A stretch of DNA of 64,000 nucleotides from Candidatus Poribacteria bacterium. Its GTDB lineage: Bacteria; Poribacteria; WGA-4E; WGA-3G. Below are positions 29,098 to 37,758 of this stretch, piece after piece. The stretch is taken from NCBI GenBank assembly GCA_958295945.1, contig OY282386.1, positions 4,458,204 through 4,522,203 on the forward strand, read 5' to 3'. Below the pieces are notes generated by a model, which was not told the DNA's origin, searched no databases, and saw only the letters and a program-made list of their open reading frames with translations. The translations under genes were made by a program, and so were the position numbers. Each line of letters begins with the position of its first letter. Position 1 is the stretch's first letter.

Positions 29098-30717
29098 TCA
29101 CACCGCAACGTTTGATAAAACCTTTACCTGAAGGGTGTTTTCATCGCTCTCTTTATAGCCAATCCGTATTGCTTTTGTGCGTATAGTGGTTTCACCTTTT
29201 TTCAAACGTAGTGGTTCTGTATACAGTTTCCAATGTACATCCTCACCTTGTTTTGTTGTATATGCTATTGATGCACCTTGTGTGGCACAGTGGAGTTGTA
29301 ATAGCGTTGGTTCTTCCCATTCTCCATTTTCATGAGCAGGTTCTCTGCCTGGATTTGTTGCGTTAATTGGGATGAAAATTGGGGATGCTGTCTGTGGTTG
29401 TTCTCCATTAGGATACCACTTTGCTTTCATCTGTTCTTCAGTGATGTCACCCATATCACCGAATTCAGTTTGCCATTCTGCTAATGTATTCCGCATCCGT
29501 TCAAGTACATCTGCGTGTGAAGCATCTTCTGCTAAGTTTTTGAGTTCGTATTTGTCATTTTCAACGTCGTAGAGTTCCTCTGTGGGACGCGGGTAACGGA
29601 ACATTGTGAGTTGATCGCCTTCTAATTTTCCTTCAGCGTAAAGCCTCCACATTTCCTGCATCACAGGATGTCGGTTTCGGTAAGGAATCCAAAGGAGATA
29701 AGGTTTTTCGGGGTAGTAATTTCTGATGTATTTATACTTTTTATCTCGCACTGCCCGTATCATGTCATAAGATTCATCAAATCTGTCGCGGGTAGCGAAG
29801 ATGTAATCCCGTTCAACTTTCTGTGTTCCGAGGAAAGGTTGTCCCTGTATGTGTTGCGGCACTTGTACGCCACACAATGATAACACTGTCGGACCTAGGT
29901 CAATCAAACTAACTAATTGATCGCTTTCGGTATTTGGGGTTATTTCACCGTTCCAACGGACGATGAGTGGTATTCGTATTCCTGCGTCATAGGGCCACCG
30001 TTTACCGCGTGGGAGTCCTTCACCGTGGTCGCTCCAGATAAAGACGATGGTGTTTTCAGCGAGTCCATCTTCTTCTAACTGGTCTAACAGTTCACCGACA
30101 CGTGCATCTGAAGTAGCGAGGTTATCGTATTGTCGTGCTAATGCCTCGCGTGCTTTCGGTGTATCTGGTAGATATGGAGGTAACTCCACATCATCAGGAT
30201 TGGTGGTTATAGGTCTGTCGTCTCTGTCCCACATTCCACTCTCGTGTGTGACGGTAGGGTTGAACACAGAGAAGAAAGGTTGTCCATCCTCACGATTTCG
30301 CCAGTGACCTTTGTTGCTGTTGTCATCCCAAGCAGTGATTGGTGGTGTGAACTGATAATCTGTTTTGTTGTTGTTTGTGCAGTAGTAGCCAGAAGCTCGT
30401 AGATATTCAGTGAAGGTTTTAACATAGGGAGGAAGAACAGCAGAATATGGAGTAGCCATGTTTGGTGCATGTTTATTTGAATGTGTGGTCCGCATGTGGT
30501 GTGTGCCTATAGAGGTTTGATACATGCCTGTGATGATTGCGGAACGACTTGGTGCACAGACACCTGCTGTTGAAAATGCATTTGGAAACCGACATCCGCC
30601 GGCAGCGAGTCGATCAATGTTTGGTGTCCGTGCGATTGGGTCTCCATAGCATCCGAAACGTGGGGTTGTATCCTCTAATGAGATCCAGAGGATATTTGGA
30701 CGATCTTGTGGGTTCAT
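29098..30717 (-). CDS. Sulfatase (heparan N-sulfatase/sulfamidase-like) with C-terminal Ig-like domain
   Basis: 539 residues. Metal site NILWISLEDTTPRFGCYGD (Glu15-Asp16) and signature Cys54-Ala-Pro-Ser-Arg58 followed by SAIITGMYQTSIGTHHMR, the form seen in N-sulfoglucosamine sulfohydrolase relatives. FIWSDHGEGLPRGKRW supplies the distal metal ligands. Residues about 460-539 (EPTLLQLHCATQGASIAYTT... KLYTEPLRLKKGETTIRTKA) are a chitobiase-C-terminal-like beta domain, which suggests contact with polysaccharide. No signal peptide is obvious. CAGGAGAAAA precedes the ATG. Confidence 0.9.
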   Translation of the reverse strand: MNPQDRPNILWISLEDTTPRFGCYGDPIARTPNIDRLAAGGCRFPNAFSTAGVCAPSRSAIITGMYQTSIGTHHMRTTHSNKHAPNMATPYSAVLPPYVKTFTEYLRASGYYCTNNNKTDYQFTPPITAWDDNSNKGHWRNREDGQPFFSVFNPTVTHESGMWDRDDRPITTNPDDVELPPYLPDTPKAREALARQYDNLATSDARVGELLDQLEEDGLAENTIVFIWSDHGEGLPRGKRWPYDAGIRIPLIVRWNGEITPNTESDQLVSLIDLGPTVLSLCGVQVPQHIQGQPFLGTQKVERDYIFATRDRFDESYDMIRAVRDKKYKYIRNYYPEKPYLLWIPYRNRHPVMQEMWRLYAEGKLEGDQLTMFRYPRPTEELYDVENDKYELKNLAEDASHADVLERMRNTLAEWQTEFGDMGDITEEQMKAKWYPNGEQPQTASPIFIPINATNPGREPAHENGEWEEPTLLQLHCATQGASIAYTTKQGEDVHWKLYTEPLRLKKGETTIRTKAIRIGYKESDENTLQVKVLSNVAV

Positions 30718-30751
30718 TTTTCTCCTGAATATTAATGATTAAAATAGTTAT

Positions 30752-30830
30752 TTTAACGAAGAACTGAGGTTTTTCTGCATATTTTGATTTCACTTTTCAT
30801 AAATCGGGGTTTCAGACCTCTCCAACGAAT
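30752..30830. repeat. Internal fragment of the AACCTAAG miniature element
   Basis: AACGAAGAACTGAGGTTTTTCTGCATATTTTG and ATAAATCGGGGTTTCAGACCTCTCCAACGAATGA align with the interior of the full copies at 43870-44012 and 61889-62030. Both ends are missing. It is in the same orientation as the isolated left end at 28874, on the other side of the sulfatase gene. Confidence 0.6.
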
Positions 30831-30864
30831 GAGGATTGATTATAGTGGCATAATCAATCATGAA

Positions 30865-31695
30865 TTAGTTCCAACAGCCTTCTACGTAGCCATCCCGAGT
30901 AAATAACTTTTTACGGTATGGTGTTGCGTCTTCCAACCATTCAGGGGGTATGTGTTGTGTGTATCGATGCGGTGGACCTGCTTCCTTGAATATGTCTATC
31001 ACAAAGATGCGATATAGCTGCGGAGAATCTACAGGTTTTGCTTCTACACCGTGGAAAATACGTGCGTCTATGTAGACCATACTCCCTGGTGGTAAATCAA
31101 GCCGTTTTTCTTCCAGTTTGCGTCCTGCTTCGTCGTCATATTCACCTGCAAGCATTCGTTCTGGTGTTGCTTCATGTGTTGGTGCGACCTTGTGGCTACC
31201 CGCTATAACTTTCAGATTGCGATCACCACGCGTGAAACCGTTCGGATAATATAATATCTGAATGTAGTAGTTGTTTCGTTCAGCAAGATTGATAGGATTC
31301 TCGTGCTTCCAGTGGTGATGGTCTTGATGGAACTGGATAGGTCCGATGCCACGGGGTGCGATGTTAAGTGCAGAATGACAGTAGTGGTATGCGTCCTCAA
31401 TGGTTGCACGTAAGAGTGCTGTAATGAAGGGATCGTCAATAAGTCTGTCGCTATATGCTCTGCGTTCGTTCCATGGACGAATAAAATATGGACGATCCGG
31501 TTTTTCACCGTTCTCCAATGCCGCAATGTATTGACGTGTCGGTTCAAATTGATGTGTTATTTCCTCGATCAGACCTTCTCTGCCATCGTCCGTGAATATA
31601 TCTGGGTATGCTATGTATCCGTCATGATGAAACGACTCTATGTCTTGATTTGATGGCGTTGATAAACGAAAGAGTGAATTCGGTTTGATTGACAT
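30865..31695 (-). CDS. Phytanoyl-CoA dioxygenase (PhyH) family oxygenase
   Basis: 276 residues from the ATG at 31695 (GAGGAAG upstream, preferred to a GTG 12 bp earlier). The iron-binding His and Asp are in GPIQFHQDHHHW and the distal His in YIDARIFHGVEAK; RIFVIDIFKEAG follows with the 2-oxoglutarate arginine (QLYRIF). It lies 8 bp after the stop of the sulfatase upstream, so the two are co-transcribed. This suggests sequential desulfation and oxidation of one substrate, or substrate scavenging. Confidence 0.88.
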   Translation of the reverse strand: MSIKPNSLFRLSTPSNQDIESFHHDGYIAYPDIFTDDGREGLIEEITHQFEPTRQYIAALENGEKPDRPYFIRPWNERRAYSDRLIDDPFITALLRATIEDAYHYCHSALNIAPRGIGPIQFHQDHHHWKHENPINLAERNNYYIQILYYPNGFTRGDRNLKVIAGSHKVAPTHEATPERMLAGEYDDEAGRKLEEKRLDLPPGSMVYIDARIFHGVEAKPVDSPQLYRIFVIDIFKEAGPPHRYTQHIPPEWLEDATPYRKKLFTRDGYVEGCWN

Positions 31696-31703
31696 AAACT
31701 TCC

Positions 31704-33176
31704 TCACATTCTGCTGTGTCCTTCTTGTTCAAACTTATCCAATAATTGTGTTAACCTATCAACAATATCTGGATGTGTAGACCATAGATTTTCTGTTTCA
31801 TAAGGGTCGTCGTAAATATGATATAGCTGCCCTGGTGAATCTGGTTTGGGACCTCCGTCACTTGGTGGGGGCCATCCTCCCGAACCTTCCGTGCCTATAA
31901 TCAATTTCCATTCTTCGTGACGTATAGAAAAAACACCATTACTGGAATGATGCACGATTGCTTTCCGAAGTTGATGATCGGTTTCTTTTCCTAAGAGTGC
32001 TGGTAAGATATTGCAACTATCTTGTCCTGCGTCATCGGGAACATCTGTTCCAACGATTGCAGCACAGGTTTCCATGAGATCCGTTAAGCACACCAATTCA
32101 TCTGATGTGGTATTCTGTTCAATCACGTTAGGCCATCTTGCGATGAATGGTTCGCGGTGTCCACCTTCCCAGATATGTGCTTTGTATCCCCGCCAATCTC
32201 CACACGACTTGTGGTCGTAGATATTATACGGCATTGGACCTTTCCCACCCTTAATTCTGTCACCGGGAAGTGCCCCGTTATCACTTGTTACGAATATTAG
32301 TGTGTCGTCAGTTTTTCCAGTTCGGTCTAATGCGTCCATGACTTCACCGACCATCCAGTCTACTAACCAAACTAAATCTCCACGCGGTCCAGCATCACTC
32401 TGTCCGCGTGCGAAGTCTGGCACTACCTCTTCAACACAAGGTTCATGTGGAGCGGAAGGCGTCATATAGATGAAGAATGGATCCTCAGAATTGGCTTGTG
32501 TCTCAATGTATTCAACCGTTTTCTGAGCAATCATCGGGTCGGCATCTTTGTGCTGCCAACTTGGGGCAGTCATGCCGGGACGCCCTGTGAAATCAGGTTC
32601 TCCACGATATTCATTCGGTATTTCAACAAAAGTATCGTTTTCTATGAATCCGTAAGGGGGTTGGCAGGTTGGACACCCCGATGTGCCATAGAAATAATCG
32701 AAACCGATGTCATTCGGACCACCTGTGATTGGTGCGTGAAAATCGATATTTTCTTCCAATTCGCGTTTTGCATTACCCCACGGTAGCGGTGCATCAAAAT
32801 TGAAGTCATAATCCGATTTCGTAGAAAATCCGAGACCTAAATGCCACTTTCCAATACAGGCAGTATTGTATCCTGAATTCTTCAGTAGTCCAGCGATTGT
32901 AAGACGTTCAGGTTCAATTAATGGAGGTTCGTAACCGTAAAGCACACCACGTTTTAGACTGCTCCGCCAGCAATATCTGCCAGTTAAGACACCGTATCGT
33001 GTAGGGGTACATACTGCGGAGGGAGAATGTGCGTCTGTAAAGCGGATTCCTTCTTGTGCAAGTTGATCCATGTTTGGTGTGGGTATCTTTGAATCAGGAT
33101 TATAGCAGCCAACATCACCATATCCCATGTCATCTGCCATAATAAAAACGATGTTGGGTAGTTTTTGATTGTCCAT
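31704..33176 (-). CDS. Sulfatase with Cys-Thr-Pro-Thr-Arg active-site motif
   Basis: 490 residues. NIVFIMADDMGYGDVGCYN forms the first metal site (Asp15-Asp16). The formylglycine motif is Cys56-Thr-Pro-Thr-Arg60 followed by YGVLTGRY; Thr in place of the usual Ser is a known variant among arylsulfatase-like S1 enzymes. TPSAPHEPC and VTSDNGALPGDR hold further metal or substrate residues. The C-terminus (YHIYDDPYETENLW) is the conserved sulfatase tail. No signal peptide. First gene of a two-gene unit with the PhyH oxygenase. Confidence 0.9.
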   Translation of the reverse strand: MDNQKLPNIVFIMADDMGYGDVGCYNPDSKIPTPNMDQLAQEGIRFTDAHSPSAVCTPTRYGVLTGRYCWRSSLKRGVLYGYEPPLIEPERLTIAGLLKNSGYNTACIGKWHLGLGFSTKSDYDFNFDAPLPWGNAKRELEENIDFHAPITGGPNDIGFDYFYGTSGCPTCQPPYGFIENDTFVEIPNEYRGEPDFTGRPGMTAPSWQHKDADPMIAQKTVEYIETQANSEDPFFIYMTPSAPHEPCVEEVVPDFARGQSDAGPRGDLVWLVDWMVGEVMDALDRTGKTDDTLIFVTSDNGALPGDRIKGGKGPMPYNIYDHKSCGDWRGYKAHIWEGGHREPFIARWPNVIEQNTTSDELVCLTDLMETCAAIVGTDVPDDAGQDSCNILPALLGKETDHQLRKAIVHHSSNGVFSIRHEEWKLIIGTEGSGGWPPPSDGGPKPDSPGQLYHIYDDPYETENLWSTHPDIVDRLTQLLDKFEQEGHSRM

Positions 33177-33213: not shown

Positions 33214-34338
33214 CTATTGTATTTTTTGTTTCAAATCTGCGAGTTCTTTTTCAATTGCTTCGTCTTCAGCATAATTGACAAACTCATGATTTACTTCCAC
33301 ATTCTTGAATTCTACATCTACCTCAGATGCTGCTTTTGCTAACGCTGCAGCTTCGGTTACATTTTGTCCCATTTTCTTGAGTATCTCAAAAGCCTTATTG
33401 CCCTGAAGTTCTGTTAGAGTCTGTTGGAGATGTTCGTGTGCGTCAACGTTTCTGTGTTGCGCGAGGACAACGTCCCTTTCTCTCTGTGTTTGTTGGGTTT
33501 TTTGATGTAGTGTGTCAAGGAGTGTTGTGAGGTGTTGGACAGTCTGCTTCTGCTCTTCCCACTGCGTCTTATATCGATTTGCGAGGTTTCTATATTCGTT
33601 TCGTTGTGCGAGGTCTTCACGTGCCAAGTCTTCGCGTCCTGCTTGTAGGGATATGACAGCGCGTTCCTCACACTTTGCTGCTTGAGAAACAGCATTGTCG
33701 TGCGCATTTTGAAACTGTTTTTCTATGCCAATAGATGCATCCACTTTCTGTTTTGCTTCTGAAAACCTATTTGTAATCTCAAGAATAACATCTTCTAATA
33801 CCTTCTCAAGATCCTTTTCTTCAGTTTCTTTCTCTTTTACTGTTTCTAGTTCTGTCTCAGGGATGATTTCAACGAGTGGCGAGTCTAACTGAACAACAAT
33901 AGTTTTTGCAAGTTTGTCTCCCATTCGCTGTCTTTCTTTTCCTGCAAGGAATAACCAATCAATAGGTTGGAATAAACCGGCAAAACGACGAACAAATGCA
34001 TCTTTTAAATTTGCTGGCTGTCCATCTTTCAAACGGATAATTTGCAGCGACATTAACCGCTTTCCAAATCCACCACCTTTTTTTACTCCATCCATCAATA
34101 ATATACCGAATGTCCATAGAGCAATACTTGATGTAGTGATTATATAACCAATACCTTCATTTGAACCATAAAAAAAATCACCAAAAAAATTATCAAAAAT
34201 TGGATGAAAAATATACGTCCCAAATATCACAAGAGCTTGGCAGAAACCTAATAGACCAACGTCCAATAAGAACGCACCGACTCTTGCCCATCGAGATGCT
34301 AATTTAAATTTTTCACCTATGACTTTGACAATAGACAT
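33214..34338 (-). CDS. RDD membrane domain fused to PspA/IM30-like coiled coil (copy 1)
   Basis: 374 residues. Residues ~13-165 form an RDD domain with the eponymous charged residues in RWARVGAFLLDVGLL, three hydrophobic segments and a GFGKRLMSLQIIRLKDGQPANL motif. Residues ~178-374 match PspA/Vipp1 along their whole length. Landmarks are CEERAVISLQAGREDLARED (PspA: A..AL...REDLAR), LAQHRNVDAHEHLQQTL (PspA: RHQAA....V...L) and the C-terminal EDEAIEKELADLKQKI (PspA: DDAI...LA.LKA). The usual amphipathic helix of PspA is replaced by a true membrane domain. Predicted to be a membrane-stress or membrane-remodelling scaffold. Its paralogue is the next gene. Confidence 0.8.
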   Translation of the reverse strand: MSIVKVIGEKFKLASRWARVGAFLLDVGLLGFCQALVIFGTYIFHPIFDNFFGDFFYGSNEGIGYIITTSSIALWTFGILLMDGVKKGGGFGKRLMSLQIIRLKDGQPANLKDAFVRRFAGLFQPIDWLFLAGKERQRMGDKLAKTIVVQLDSPLVEIIPETELETVKEKETEEKDLEKVLEDVILEITNRFSEAKQKVDASIGIEKQFQNAHDNAVSQAAKCEERAVISLQAGREDLAREDLAQRNEYRNLANRYKTQWEEQKQTVQHLTTLLDTLHQKTQQTQRERDVVLAQHRNVDAHEHLQQTLTELQGNKAFEILKKMGQNVTEAAALAKAASEVDVEFKNVEVNHEFVNYAEDEAIEKELADLKQKIQ

Positions 34339-34451
34339 TATTATTGCATCCCCGTAGGTTTTTCAGTGTTGTGTTGTGTGAAAAATGTGAATGAGTTTTA
34401 TGAGAAGTTATTCTTGAGATGTGGTATAAGTCGCCATAAGGTCAATTGGTA

Positions 34452-35495
34452 TCATTGTAACTTTGCCTTTAATTCTGCTAAGTCATCGTCTATTGATGCT
34501 TCTTCAGCATAACCAGAAAATTCTTTGTTTAACTTCAAATCTGAAAGATCGTTGTCTACTTGTGATGCAGCTTTTGCTAAAGTGGCGGCTTCACTTACAT
34601 TCTGTTCCATTTTATTGAGTATATCAAAGGCAACACCATCTTCTACCTCAGTTAAAGTTTGTTGTAGGTGCTTCTGTGCATCTACATTTCTGTGCTGTGC
34701 AATAACGAGATCCCTTTTCCGCTCCGCTTCTTCTGTTTTCATTTGTAGTGTTTCAAGCAGGTTGGTTAATTCTGCCACGACCTGATTCTGTTCTTCCCAC
34801 TGTTTTTTGTATCGTTCTGCAAGTTGTTTATATTCGTTTCGTTGTGTGATATCTTCGCGCGCTAAGTCTTCACGTCCTGCTTGGATTGCAATTGTTGCCC
34901 TTTCTTCACATCTTTCAGCCTGTACCAAAGCCCCTTCATAGGCACTCTGGAATTGCTTTTCAATACCAATAGATGCATCAACTTTCTCTCTTGCTTCCAT
35001 CAACCGAGCGGCAATTTCAACTATAGCATTCTCTAACACTTTTTCAGGATCTTCTTTTTGTTGTGGAACATCATATTGTATGTGGGGTTCATACTTTACA
35101 ACAACCGTTTCAGCGAATAGGTCCCCCATCCGCTGCTTTTTGTTCCCCAACGAAAAGAGGACATCAAAAGGTTGGAAAAATGAAGTTAATCTCCGAATGA
35201 AAGAGTTTTTAAAAGTACACGGTTTTCCATCCTTCAATCGTAGGACCTGCATTGACAAGAGACGTTTCCCAATTCCTTGACCATTATTGAAACCGTCCAA
35301 GAAAAGCATACCAGCACACCAAAACAAAATCGGAGTCCAATCAGTTGGAACTGGAATTATATGGAGGGTGTTTGTAAAAATGGATATTATTGCAGATAAC
35401 CAAAATATGATAATACTATCCAGAAAAAACGCGAACATCCGTGCAAATCTGGATGCTAATCTAAACTTTTTTCCAGCTATTTCAAGTAGTCTCAT
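34452..35495 (-). CDS. RDD membrane domain fused to PspA/IM30-like coiled coil (copy 2)
   Basis: 347 residues from the ATG at 35495 (GAGGAT upstream; an earlier TTG is less likely). It has the same architecture as the gene downstream: RDD domain (RFARMFAFFLDSIIIF, GIGKRLLSMQVLRLKDGKPCTF), then a PspA-type helical domain with CEERATIAIQAGREDLARED, IAQHRNVDAQKHLQQTL and EEASIDDDLAELKAKL. The PspA halves of the two copies are more alike than the RDD halves. The copies are separated by 113 bp and probably one transcript, so they may form mixed oligomers. Upstream 35505-35731 holds no gene. Confidence 0.8.
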   Translation of the reverse strand: MRLLEIAGKKFRLASRFARMFAFFLDSIIIFWLSAIISIFTNTLHIIPVPTDWTPILFWCAGMLFLDGFNNGQGIGKRLLSMQVLRLKDGKPCTFKNSFIRRLTSFFQPFDVLFSLGNKKQRMGDLFAETVVVKYEPHIQYDVPQQKEDPEKVLENAIVEIAARLMEAREKVDASIGIEKQFQSAYEGALVQAERCEERATIAIQAGREDLAREDITQRNEYKQLAERYKKQWEEQNQVVAELTNLLETLQMKTEEAERKRDLVIAQHRNVDAQKHLQQTLTEVEDGVAFDILNKMEQNVSEAATLAKAASQVDNDLSDLKLNKEFSGYAEEASIDDDLAELKAKLQ

Positions 35496-35731
35496 TGTAT
35501 GCAAATCCTCAGTTTTTTTGGGAAAACCCGCTTTTTGTTTTGTCCGAAGGAATAAAATTCACATTTCTAGGTTTTCTCAATCCATTATACCAAATTAACG
35601 TAATCTGCCCTGCGAGGTCTCCGTGCCTCACAATGCTAACTTTATCAGAAAAGGACCAATCCAGTTAATTGGGTATTACATATTTTTAAAATAGAGTCAT
35701 CCATCATCAAAAGGATAGGCACATTTTGTGG

Positions 35732-36790
35732 TTACATTGATGGCACAGTAACTTCCACTTCACGTCCACCATTTTCTGAGGAATCGATGACTCCTTGAAT
35801 GACTACGTTTGTAAGCATTATCTCATACGGGTCAATTGGAGAGGGTTTTCCTTCTCTGACAGCATCAATGAATGCGCTATCTTCTTCGTGGAAGACGTTT
35901 ACCGGTTTAAATTCGGTGTATGTTTCGTCGTGAATCTCACCGTCCTTATCACCGTAAACGCGAACACCATCTTGTGGGCCACGGACTTCACCGATCCCGA
36001 TTCGCAAACCTGCTTTTTTACCGAGGAAAATAGTGCCGCCAAGAGAATCCATATTCATGCACCAACATGTCTTGAATACTAAACGTGCGCCGTTATCAAA
36101 AACGACCCATCCAACACCGAAGTCTTCCACTTCTGTTTGTTTCAGTCCTTCGTTCCATGTATTGTGTAGACTTAGGTAGTTTGAGGTGATTCCAGAAACA
36201 GCAACAGGTTTTGGATGCCCCATCAGATAGAGCGCAGTATCTAATGCATATACACCGATGTCTGCTGATGCACCTAATCCTGCGGTTGCTTTCCGTATGA
36301 AACTTCCACCGGGATTTCCACGCCGACGGTCCGCAACAGTTTCTGCATAATAAATATCGCCAAGTGTTCCTGCGTCAACGATTTCCTTCGCTTTCTTGAC
36401 TTGTCCGGAATATCGAAGTTTGAGACCGATCATGAGTATTTTATCATTTTCTACGGAAGCACGCCACATCGCTTCCGCACCTTCCAACGTTGCCTCCATC
36501 GGTTTTTCACAGAAGACGTGCTTGCCTGCATTTAATGCAGCAACAGTTGGTGCAGCATGGACACCGGTCGGGGTGCATACATACACTGCCTCGATTTCGT
36601 CCATTTTGAGCATTTCATTGTAATCATCAAAAGTATTTTTTATTCCCCATCGTTCTTTTGCACGTTCTAAATTCGCAGGGACAAGATCAGCAGCTGCGAT
36701 AATTTCGCATCCTTTAATCTCAGCAAGTGTTCCACAGTGTGCCTGTGAGATACCACCTGCACCGATCAAACCTAATTTGACTGTTCTCAT
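35732..36790 (-). CDS. Gfo/Idh/MocA-family NAD(P)-dependent oxidoreductase
   Basis: 352 residues from the ATG at 36790, six bases after GAGGAG; the ATG two codons earlier is too close to that site. An N-terminal Rossmann fold (KLGLIGAGGISQAHC, GxGGxxxxH) is followed by AVYVCTPTGVHAAPTVAALNAGKHVFCEKPMEAT, with the catalytic-region EKP motif. The C-terminal alpha/beta domain contains ADIGVYALDTALYLMG, including the conserved D..VY.LD stretch. Such enzymes oxidise or isomerise sugars, inositols and related polyols. It is a single gene here; the substrate cannot be told. Confidence 0.9.
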   Translation of the reverse strand: MRTVKLGLIGAGGISQAHCGTLAEIKGCEIIAAADLVPANLERAKERWGIKNTFDDYNEMLKMDEIEAVYVCTPTGVHAAPTVAALNAGKHVFCEKPMEATLEGAEAMWRASVENDKILMIGLKLRYSGQVKKAKEIVDAGTLGDIYYAETVADRRRGNPGGSFIRKATAGLGASADIGVYALDTALYLMGHPKPVAVSGITSNYLSLHNTWNEGLKQTEVEDFGVGWVVFDNGARLVFKTCWCMNMDSLGGTIFLGKKAGLRIGIGEVRGPQDGVRVYGDKDGEIHDETYTEFKPVNVFHEEDSAFIDAVREGKPSPIDPYEIMLTNVVIQGVIDSSENGGREVEVTVPSM

Positions 36791-36875
36791 TGACATCTCC
36801 TCAATACAGATTTGTTCTATAGATTTTATCTTATTTTTCTGTATAAAGTCAAGAGAAAAACTGATGTAGGATATG

Positions 36876-37149: not shown

Positions 37150-37758
37150 ATGTCAGCAAACGCTATAACGGTCTATCGTTTAATATTGACATTTATTGTC
37201 CTCGCAATTTTCGGAACGAACACATACATAAGTATCGCATGCATTGTAACCATTCTCATTATTTTTATAATGGATTCGGTAGACGGTATTGTAGCGCGTA
37301 AAAAGAATCAGACCTCCACATTCGGTGCTGTGTTTGATATTGTTGCTGACAGGATTGTAGAAAATGTATTGTGGATATATTTTGCTTATAAGATAGAATT
37401 CATTCCGCTCTGGATGCCGATTGTTGTTGTGACTCGCGGGCTTCTGACGGACGGTGTGCGTAGTATTGCTCTCACAGAAGGAAAAGCACCATTTGAAATG
37501 ATGACTATCCCGTGGGCACGTGCGTTGACGAGTTCGCGTATATCCCGCTCAGTTTATGGCGTAGCCAAGACGGTTATGTTTCTTCTGCTTCCGACCGTAT
37601 ATGTTCTCCAAGACAAAGATGTCTTTGCAAACATCCCTATCATTGTCACTGATTCCTTGCTGTTGGTGTCTTTGATACTTGCATACATTACTGTTGTGAT
37701 GTGCTTGGTTAGAGGGATTCCTGTGCTTATTGATGGGTGGAGGTATGTTAAGAAATAG
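37150..37758 (+). CDS. CDP-alcohol phosphatidyltransferase (PgsA-like)
   Basis: 202 residues with six hydrophobic helices. The complete family signature is visible: Asp42-x2-Asp45-Gly46-x2-Ala49-Arg50-x8-Gly59-x3-Asp63-x3-Asp67 (MDSVDGIVARKKN...GAVFDIVAD). It is an integral inner-membrane enzyme that transfers a phosphatidyl group from CDP-diacylglycerol to an alcohol such as glycerol-3-phosphate or inositol phosphate. Length and motif fit phosphatidylglycerophosphate synthase, but the acceptor is not determined by the motif. The gene stands alone, flanked by miniature elements on both sides. Confidence 0.88.
   Translation: MSANAITVYRLILTFIVLAIFGTNTYISIACIVTILIIFIMDSVDGIVARKKNQTSTFGAVFDIVADRIVENVLWIYFAYKIEFIPLWMPIVVVTRGLLTDGVRSIALTEGKAPFEMMTIPWARALTSSRISRSVYGVAKTVMFLLLPTVYVLQDKDVFANIPIIVTDSLLLVSLILAYITVVMCLVRGIPVLIDGWRYVKK

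Follow-up and report, generated by a model that had tools for sequence, protein, structure and literature searches.

Two adjacent genes in the window (the whole 64,000-nucleotide stretch of DNA analysed here) encode proteins in which an N-terminal RDD membrane domain is followed by a PspA/IM30 core, and we think that these genes probably specify an integral-membrane PspA polymer at the cytoplasmic face of the bilayer. In its usual form PspA is soluble, coating and repairing membranes with helix α0 as its amphipathic anchor. The architecture described below suggests a repair coat that has shifted from sticking to the membrane to being built into it. The window comes from a 5.34 Mb single-contig genome of a sponge-associated Candidatus Poribacteria bacterium, in keeping with the known association of this phylum with sponges (PMC3909097, PMC5087111).

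An RDD domain and a PspA core in each of two genes

Both genes lie on the minus strand. The upstream copy, ORF2 (34452–35495), encodes 347 amino acids from an ATG preceded by GAGGA; a mechanical list of open reading frames runs on to a TTG at 35504, and we took the ATG. The downstream copy, ORF1 (33214–34338), also starts with ATG and encodes 374 amino acids, and the two proteins are about 52–54% identical. A first-pass annotation, made from the sequence alone, had placed an RDD and a PspA domain within each gene, and profile searches bear this out. Against curated Pfam cut-offs of 24.1 bits for RDD (PF06271) and 33.9 bits for PspA_IM30 (PF04012), ORF1 scores 45.8 and 72 bits and ORF2 scores 42.7 and 98.8 bits, and both families are matched in 36/36 relatives (E ≤ 0.001). 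The RDD domain spans residues 14–127 of ORF2 (35115–35456, minus strand; 42.7–42.8 bits) and, from the profile match together with the structural model, residues 14–145 of ORF1 (33904–34299, minus strand). The PspA domain follows at residues 143–345 of ORF2 (34461–35069, minus strand; 98.8–98.9 bits, profile positions 17–217 of 220) and residues 172–371 of ORF1 (33226–33825, minus strand; profile positions 19–216 of 220). The sequence landmarks named in the same annotation, EDLAR, AQHRNVDA..LQQTL and AIxxxLAxLK, are all present, the last as AIEKELADLK/SIDDDLAELK. A match to coiled coil only is ruled out by the PF04012 scores and by PDB sequence matches, all of which are Vipp1 or PspA down to an E value of about 1e-10. 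In NCBIfam, both proteins resemble PspA and LiaH but score far under the equivalog cut-offs, as expected of a divergent branch.

We give practically no credence to the idea that the fusion is an artefact of a frame error or of an assembly join between neighbouring genes. One genome, G020, does have the RDD and PspA halves in different frames (L070:4986–6067); the frames overlap by 37 bases in the linker, where a single frameshift separates them, and the cause may be either an error in sequencing or a genuine split of the gene. Nevertheless, intact copies of the fusion in dozens of independent assemblies, single-contig genomes among them, refute the artefact, and no adjacent but separate RDD and PspA genes were found at the sister-family loci examined.

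The RDD half is poorly modelled (pLDDT about 46–73, pTM 0.35). Its low-confidence helices fall at residues 16–43 and 54–65 in ORF2 and at residues 16–43 and 61–82 in ORF1; hydropathy gives two peaks in ORF1 (2.08 and 1.67) and one clear peak in ORF2 (2.24), the second membrane segment of ORF2 being the low-confidence modelled helix. The first 19 residues contain 5–6 lysines and arginines, the TM1–TM2 loop has none, and 12–14 follow TM2, a distribution that, by the positive-inside rule, would place both ends in the cytoplasm and hence predicts a cytoplasmic PspA core.

With other RDD proteins, including B. subtilis SppI/YteJ and the Halobacillus RDD protein, the fusions share one arginine and two aspartates as well as predicted membrane helices; they differ in that the C-terminal partner is a PspA core. 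R19, D26 and D67 are invariant across 26 aligned fusions, and D26 is at least 90% conserved across 36 copies. This conservation fits the main alternative, in which activity resides in the RDD domain, either as an intramembrane binding site or as a cation/H+ antiporter, and the PspA half serves it as scaffold or regulator by clustering or gating it, making the whole a sensor-transporter for lipid, ion or pH instead of a coat. In its favour, RDD domains are said to hold a cytoplasm-facing intramembrane site and to occur joined to further domains, VanZ among them (PMC12419801), one study reported Na+(Li+,K+)/H+ antiport by the Halobacillus protein (PMC5996927), and SppI, also an RDD protein, has a C-terminal part that controls a protease (PMC7568657), so that there, too, the C-terminal part does the work. 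By contrast, resistance to salt and alkali was unchanged in B. subtilis when sppI was deleted or overexpressed (PMC7568657), which means that antiport is not a general property of RDD proteins. Moreover, when the window genes are compared with their G016 orthologues, dN/dS is 0.06–0.08 for the PspA half and 0.23–0.25 for the RDD half, values that mark both halves as constrained, with the PspA half three- to fourfold more so. We consider an active RDD domain with a subordinate PspA half unlikely, and favour a PspA polymer tethered by its RDD domain.

The PspA core has lost α0 and carries an acidic hairpin

The PspA domain had been described as full-length, which overstates it. In ORF1 and ORF2 the profile match covers α1 to α5 and starts only at position 17–19, and helix α0 is therefore missing. 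Among the fusions generally, the match begins at profile positions 17–22, compared with 1–3 in the soluble PspAs of the sister-family genome G044. Soluble PspAs of the sister families start with an amphipathic α0 of the type MSIFDRVSRVFKANVNAALDKAEDPEK. In the alignment, the fusions share the PspA motif from about DPEK on, and ahead of it stand the RDD domain and a short linker that is mostly acidic; the RDD domain occupies the place of α0.

In the predicted structure, most of the α1–α2/3 hairpin has pLDDT above 90, and α4 and α5 are modelled with low confidence. Foldseek ranks Vipp1/PspA best (Vipp1, E 2e-7), followed by CHMP1B and Asgard ESCRT-III; the VIA-align Z score of 14.1 to 7o3x has to be read against unrelated long-helix proteins, which already reach 11–12. 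Helix α5 carries a DLAELKAKL-type motif in which L339, L342 and K343 are invariant across 26 aligned copies.

The charge of the hairpin separates the fusions from their soluble kin. Computed over 133 common columns of α1–α3, the hairpin pI is 4.91–6.01 in 62/62 fusions (net charge −9 to −2), whereas it is 8.75–9.58 in 16/16 soluble sister proteins (net charge +2 to +6), 9.22 in Synechocystis IM30 (SynIM30) and 8.21 in E. coli PspA (residues 1–144 of the sequence confirmed against PDB 4WHE). More distant soluble paralogues lie in between, at 5.4–8.9. The acidic hairpin of the RDD–PspA fusions, as opposed to the basic one of soluble sisters, is a new finding. In IM30, electrostatic binding to membranes depends mainly on a basic hairpin (PMC12636044); this role is shown for IM30 and may not define the whole PspA/IM30 family. 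Helix α0 bends the membrane, and structures have also been solved for a PspA truncation that lacks it (PMC12358876). From these comparisons, the fusions have lost both usual membrane-binding features, α0 and the basic hairpin, where they gained a transmembrane domain. Charge shift and fusion fall on one branch of the tree, and the link between them is thus a correlation with n = 1.

The first-pass annotation had proposed that the fusion would fix an ESCRT-III-like polymerising domain to the membrane. Covalent attachment of a PspA/ESCRT-III-like domain to a membrane domain is supported, and the loss of α0 and the turn of the hairpin from basic to acidic strengthen the case. With an acidic bilayer opposite it, the acidic hairpin might also keep the core away from the membrane, which would count against a coat. 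The fusion could also be a non-polymerising membrane spacer that retains the PspA coiled coil as a rod to which other proteins bind; the loss of both membrane-binding features, the reversed charge and the low-confidence models of α4 and α5 all agree with such a rod. However, the α5 motif, which in Vipp1 touches the hairpin of a neighbouring subunit (PMC8281802), is kept in every one of the 26 aligned copies, and purifying selection is strong. A rod of this kind seems to us improbable, and a tethered, polymerising PspA core remains the preferred reading.

A single origin and the replacement of soluble PspA

We examined 85 genomes of the phylum. The fusion occurs in 56/59 genomes of the window's family and in 0/26 genomes of nine other Poribacteria families, where matches cover the PspA half or the RDD half alone. 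A scan of genome contigs for the fusion, which reaches close relatives only, returned Poribacteria exclusively. In a tree of PspA domains, all 62 sampled fusions form one clade with support of 100/100, which argues that the RDD–PspA fusions have a single origin. Their nearest soluble kin are PspAs from other families in the same order and class (best 36–44% identity). Spread by plasmids found no backing: a PLSDB megablast with the region gave zero matches, and a PLSDB protein search gave one match alone, an unfused Paenibacillus PspA at 26% identity.

Strong soluble PspA is absent from three complete or near-complete genomes of the family (G000, which is the window's genome, G024 and G035). 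In these genomes the fusions score 68–100 bits and divergent soluble homologues just 23–66 bits, compared with four soluble PspAs of 113–189 bits in G044. This comparison of near-complete genomes indicates that the fusion replaced soluble PspA.

Elsewhere in the window's genome, G000:C1:1736518–1740222 (L004) holds a tandem pair of divergent soluble PspA-like proteins in open frames of 252 and 289 amino acids, the second of which barely attains the PF04012 cut-off. A further pair, of RDD genes separated by about 3.5 kb, lies at G000:C1:5021247–5025105 (L005 and L007); their C-terminal parts are nearly identical, and one of the genes looks truncated, as after a recent local duplication.

An array of one to four fusion genes in a conserved neighbourhood

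The array has the same location in nearly every genome of the family and reads, on one strand, Gfo/Idh, one to four RDD–PspA genes, sulfatase and often PhyH. In the window these flanks are a Gfo/Idh/MocA oxidoreductase gene upstream (35732–36796), a sulfatase gene downstream (31704–33176), which begins 37 bp past the ORF1 stop, and then a PhyH dioxygenase gene (30865–31707) that is kept in 25 compared loci, all on the minus strand and assigned by synteny and Pfam. In 32 sampled loci, one copy was found in 11, two in 15, three in 3 and four in 3, as minimum values given contig ends and split genes. Clade C, the ORF1 type, is the 3′-most copy in 16/16 multi-copy arrays that have one; ORF2 belongs to clade B. 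Clade C occurs in two genera, and the duplication that gave rise to the ORF1 and ORF2 types thus predates their split.

The first-pass annotation had also read the two genes as paralogues for hetero-assembly. They are indeed an old pair, side by side and under purifying selection, yet a pair is just one case among arrays of one to four copies. With a single copy at 11 of the 32 loci, some of them cut by contig ends, an obligatory two-paralogue heteropolymer is unlikely; the single-copy loci suggest that hetero-assembly is possible without being required everywhere. Thirteen type-specific positions in α1, α3 and the α4–α5 linker distinguish ORF1-type from other copies, and they show no clear cluster at one interface, thus neither supporting nor excluding hetero-assembly.

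In two genomes of the same genus (G008 and G011), about 80 bp separate the Gfo/Idh gene from the sulfatase gene and this interval is empty, most simply explained by loss, and canonical PspA is absent from both, so the array is dispensable in them. In G049, from another family, the Gfo/Idh and sulfatase genes enclose small unrelated open reading frames, and the array thus probably arrived in an existing Gfo/Idh–sulfatase neighbourhood. A family of small proteins of about 101–111 amino acids (MFIEIINPDEAYKSSYRGVVNIEYVHQIKIIRG...) is encoded in or beside the array at five loci, including L054:7177–7482.

A proposed mechanism and its relation to known systems

We propose that the RDD domain would anchor the PspA core on the cytoplasmic side of the membrane, that cores could polymerise there through the conserved hairpin/α5 contact, and that the resulting polymer would be a membrane-tethered, ESCRT-III-like coat with a stabilising or shaping effect on the membrane. 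A single coat may combine neighbouring paralogues and so be tuned by them, and the RDD domain may in addition control assembly by sensing a lipid or ion. Only tentatively, and with more doubt than conviction, do we extend this proposal to an obligate integral-membrane bacterial ESCRT-III, in which a polytopic domain took over membrane attachment entirely from α0 and the basic hairpin, the soluble ancestor disappeared, and the gene multiplied into arrays whose paralogues form a mixed inner-membrane coat in sponge symbionts.

The fusions share with PspA, Vipp1 (IM30) and LiaH, members of the bacterial ESCRT-III family (PF04012), the α1–α5 core, the hairpin motif, and the EDLAR and α5 motifs. Unlike these proteins, they have no α0, an acidic instead of a basic hairpin, a predicted N-terminal two-helix membrane domain and tandem arrays, and they occur in a genome in which PspC, a partner in the Psp stress-response system, was not detected. 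No link to conserved Psp operons was found either, the neighbours being Gfo/Idh, sulfatase and PhyH. Known PspA fusions named in the main texts of two surveys are PspA–NlpC/P60, PspA–PspAA and PspA–PspC (PMC11237479, PMC9239133), of which PspA–PspC is nearest in spirit because PspC likewise contributes a membrane segment. According to the main text of one of them, multi-domain PspA proteins are rare, making up under 2% of homologues, and over 98% vary little in architecture (PMC11237479). Neither main text mentions RDD (PMC11237479, PMC9239133), although supplements or domain databases may list the architecture, and our literature search found no paper joining 'RDD family' with PspA, or Poribacteria with PspA.

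The relative shares of α0 insertion and hairpin electrostatics in PspA and Vipp1 action are under active study (PMC12636044, PMC12358876). The fusions amount to a natural removal of both α0 and the basic hairpin, with a membrane domain supplied and the polymer core kept under strong selection. If they still assemble and protect membranes, attachment would suffice for core function and α0 insertion would be unneeded. More broadly, they would represent a natural design for a bilayer-tethered ESCRT-III coat in a dominant group of uncultured sponge symbionts. A connection to the cell compartments of Poribacteria is speculation, since single-cell genomics reported microcompartments only, with no sign of large membrane compartments (PMC3909097), and phage shock proteins are mentioned in neither of two Poribacteria papers (PMC3909097, PMC5087111).

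Neighbouring genes

A scan of promoters and terminators gave 19 promoter-like sites against 13.9 expected, an uninformative result. Downstream of the array (29098–33176, minus strand), the PhyH dioxygenase gene lies between two sulfatase genes whose products have no obvious signal peptide, and its start overlaps a sulfatase stop; the sulfatase and PhyH genes possibly form one transcription unit with the RDD–PspA array. Upstream of Gfo/Idh and running the other way, a gene at 37150–37758 (plus strand) encodes a CDP-alcohol phosphatidyltransferase of the phospholipid synthesis type (PF01066), which is kept in eight compared loci, all within the window's genus.
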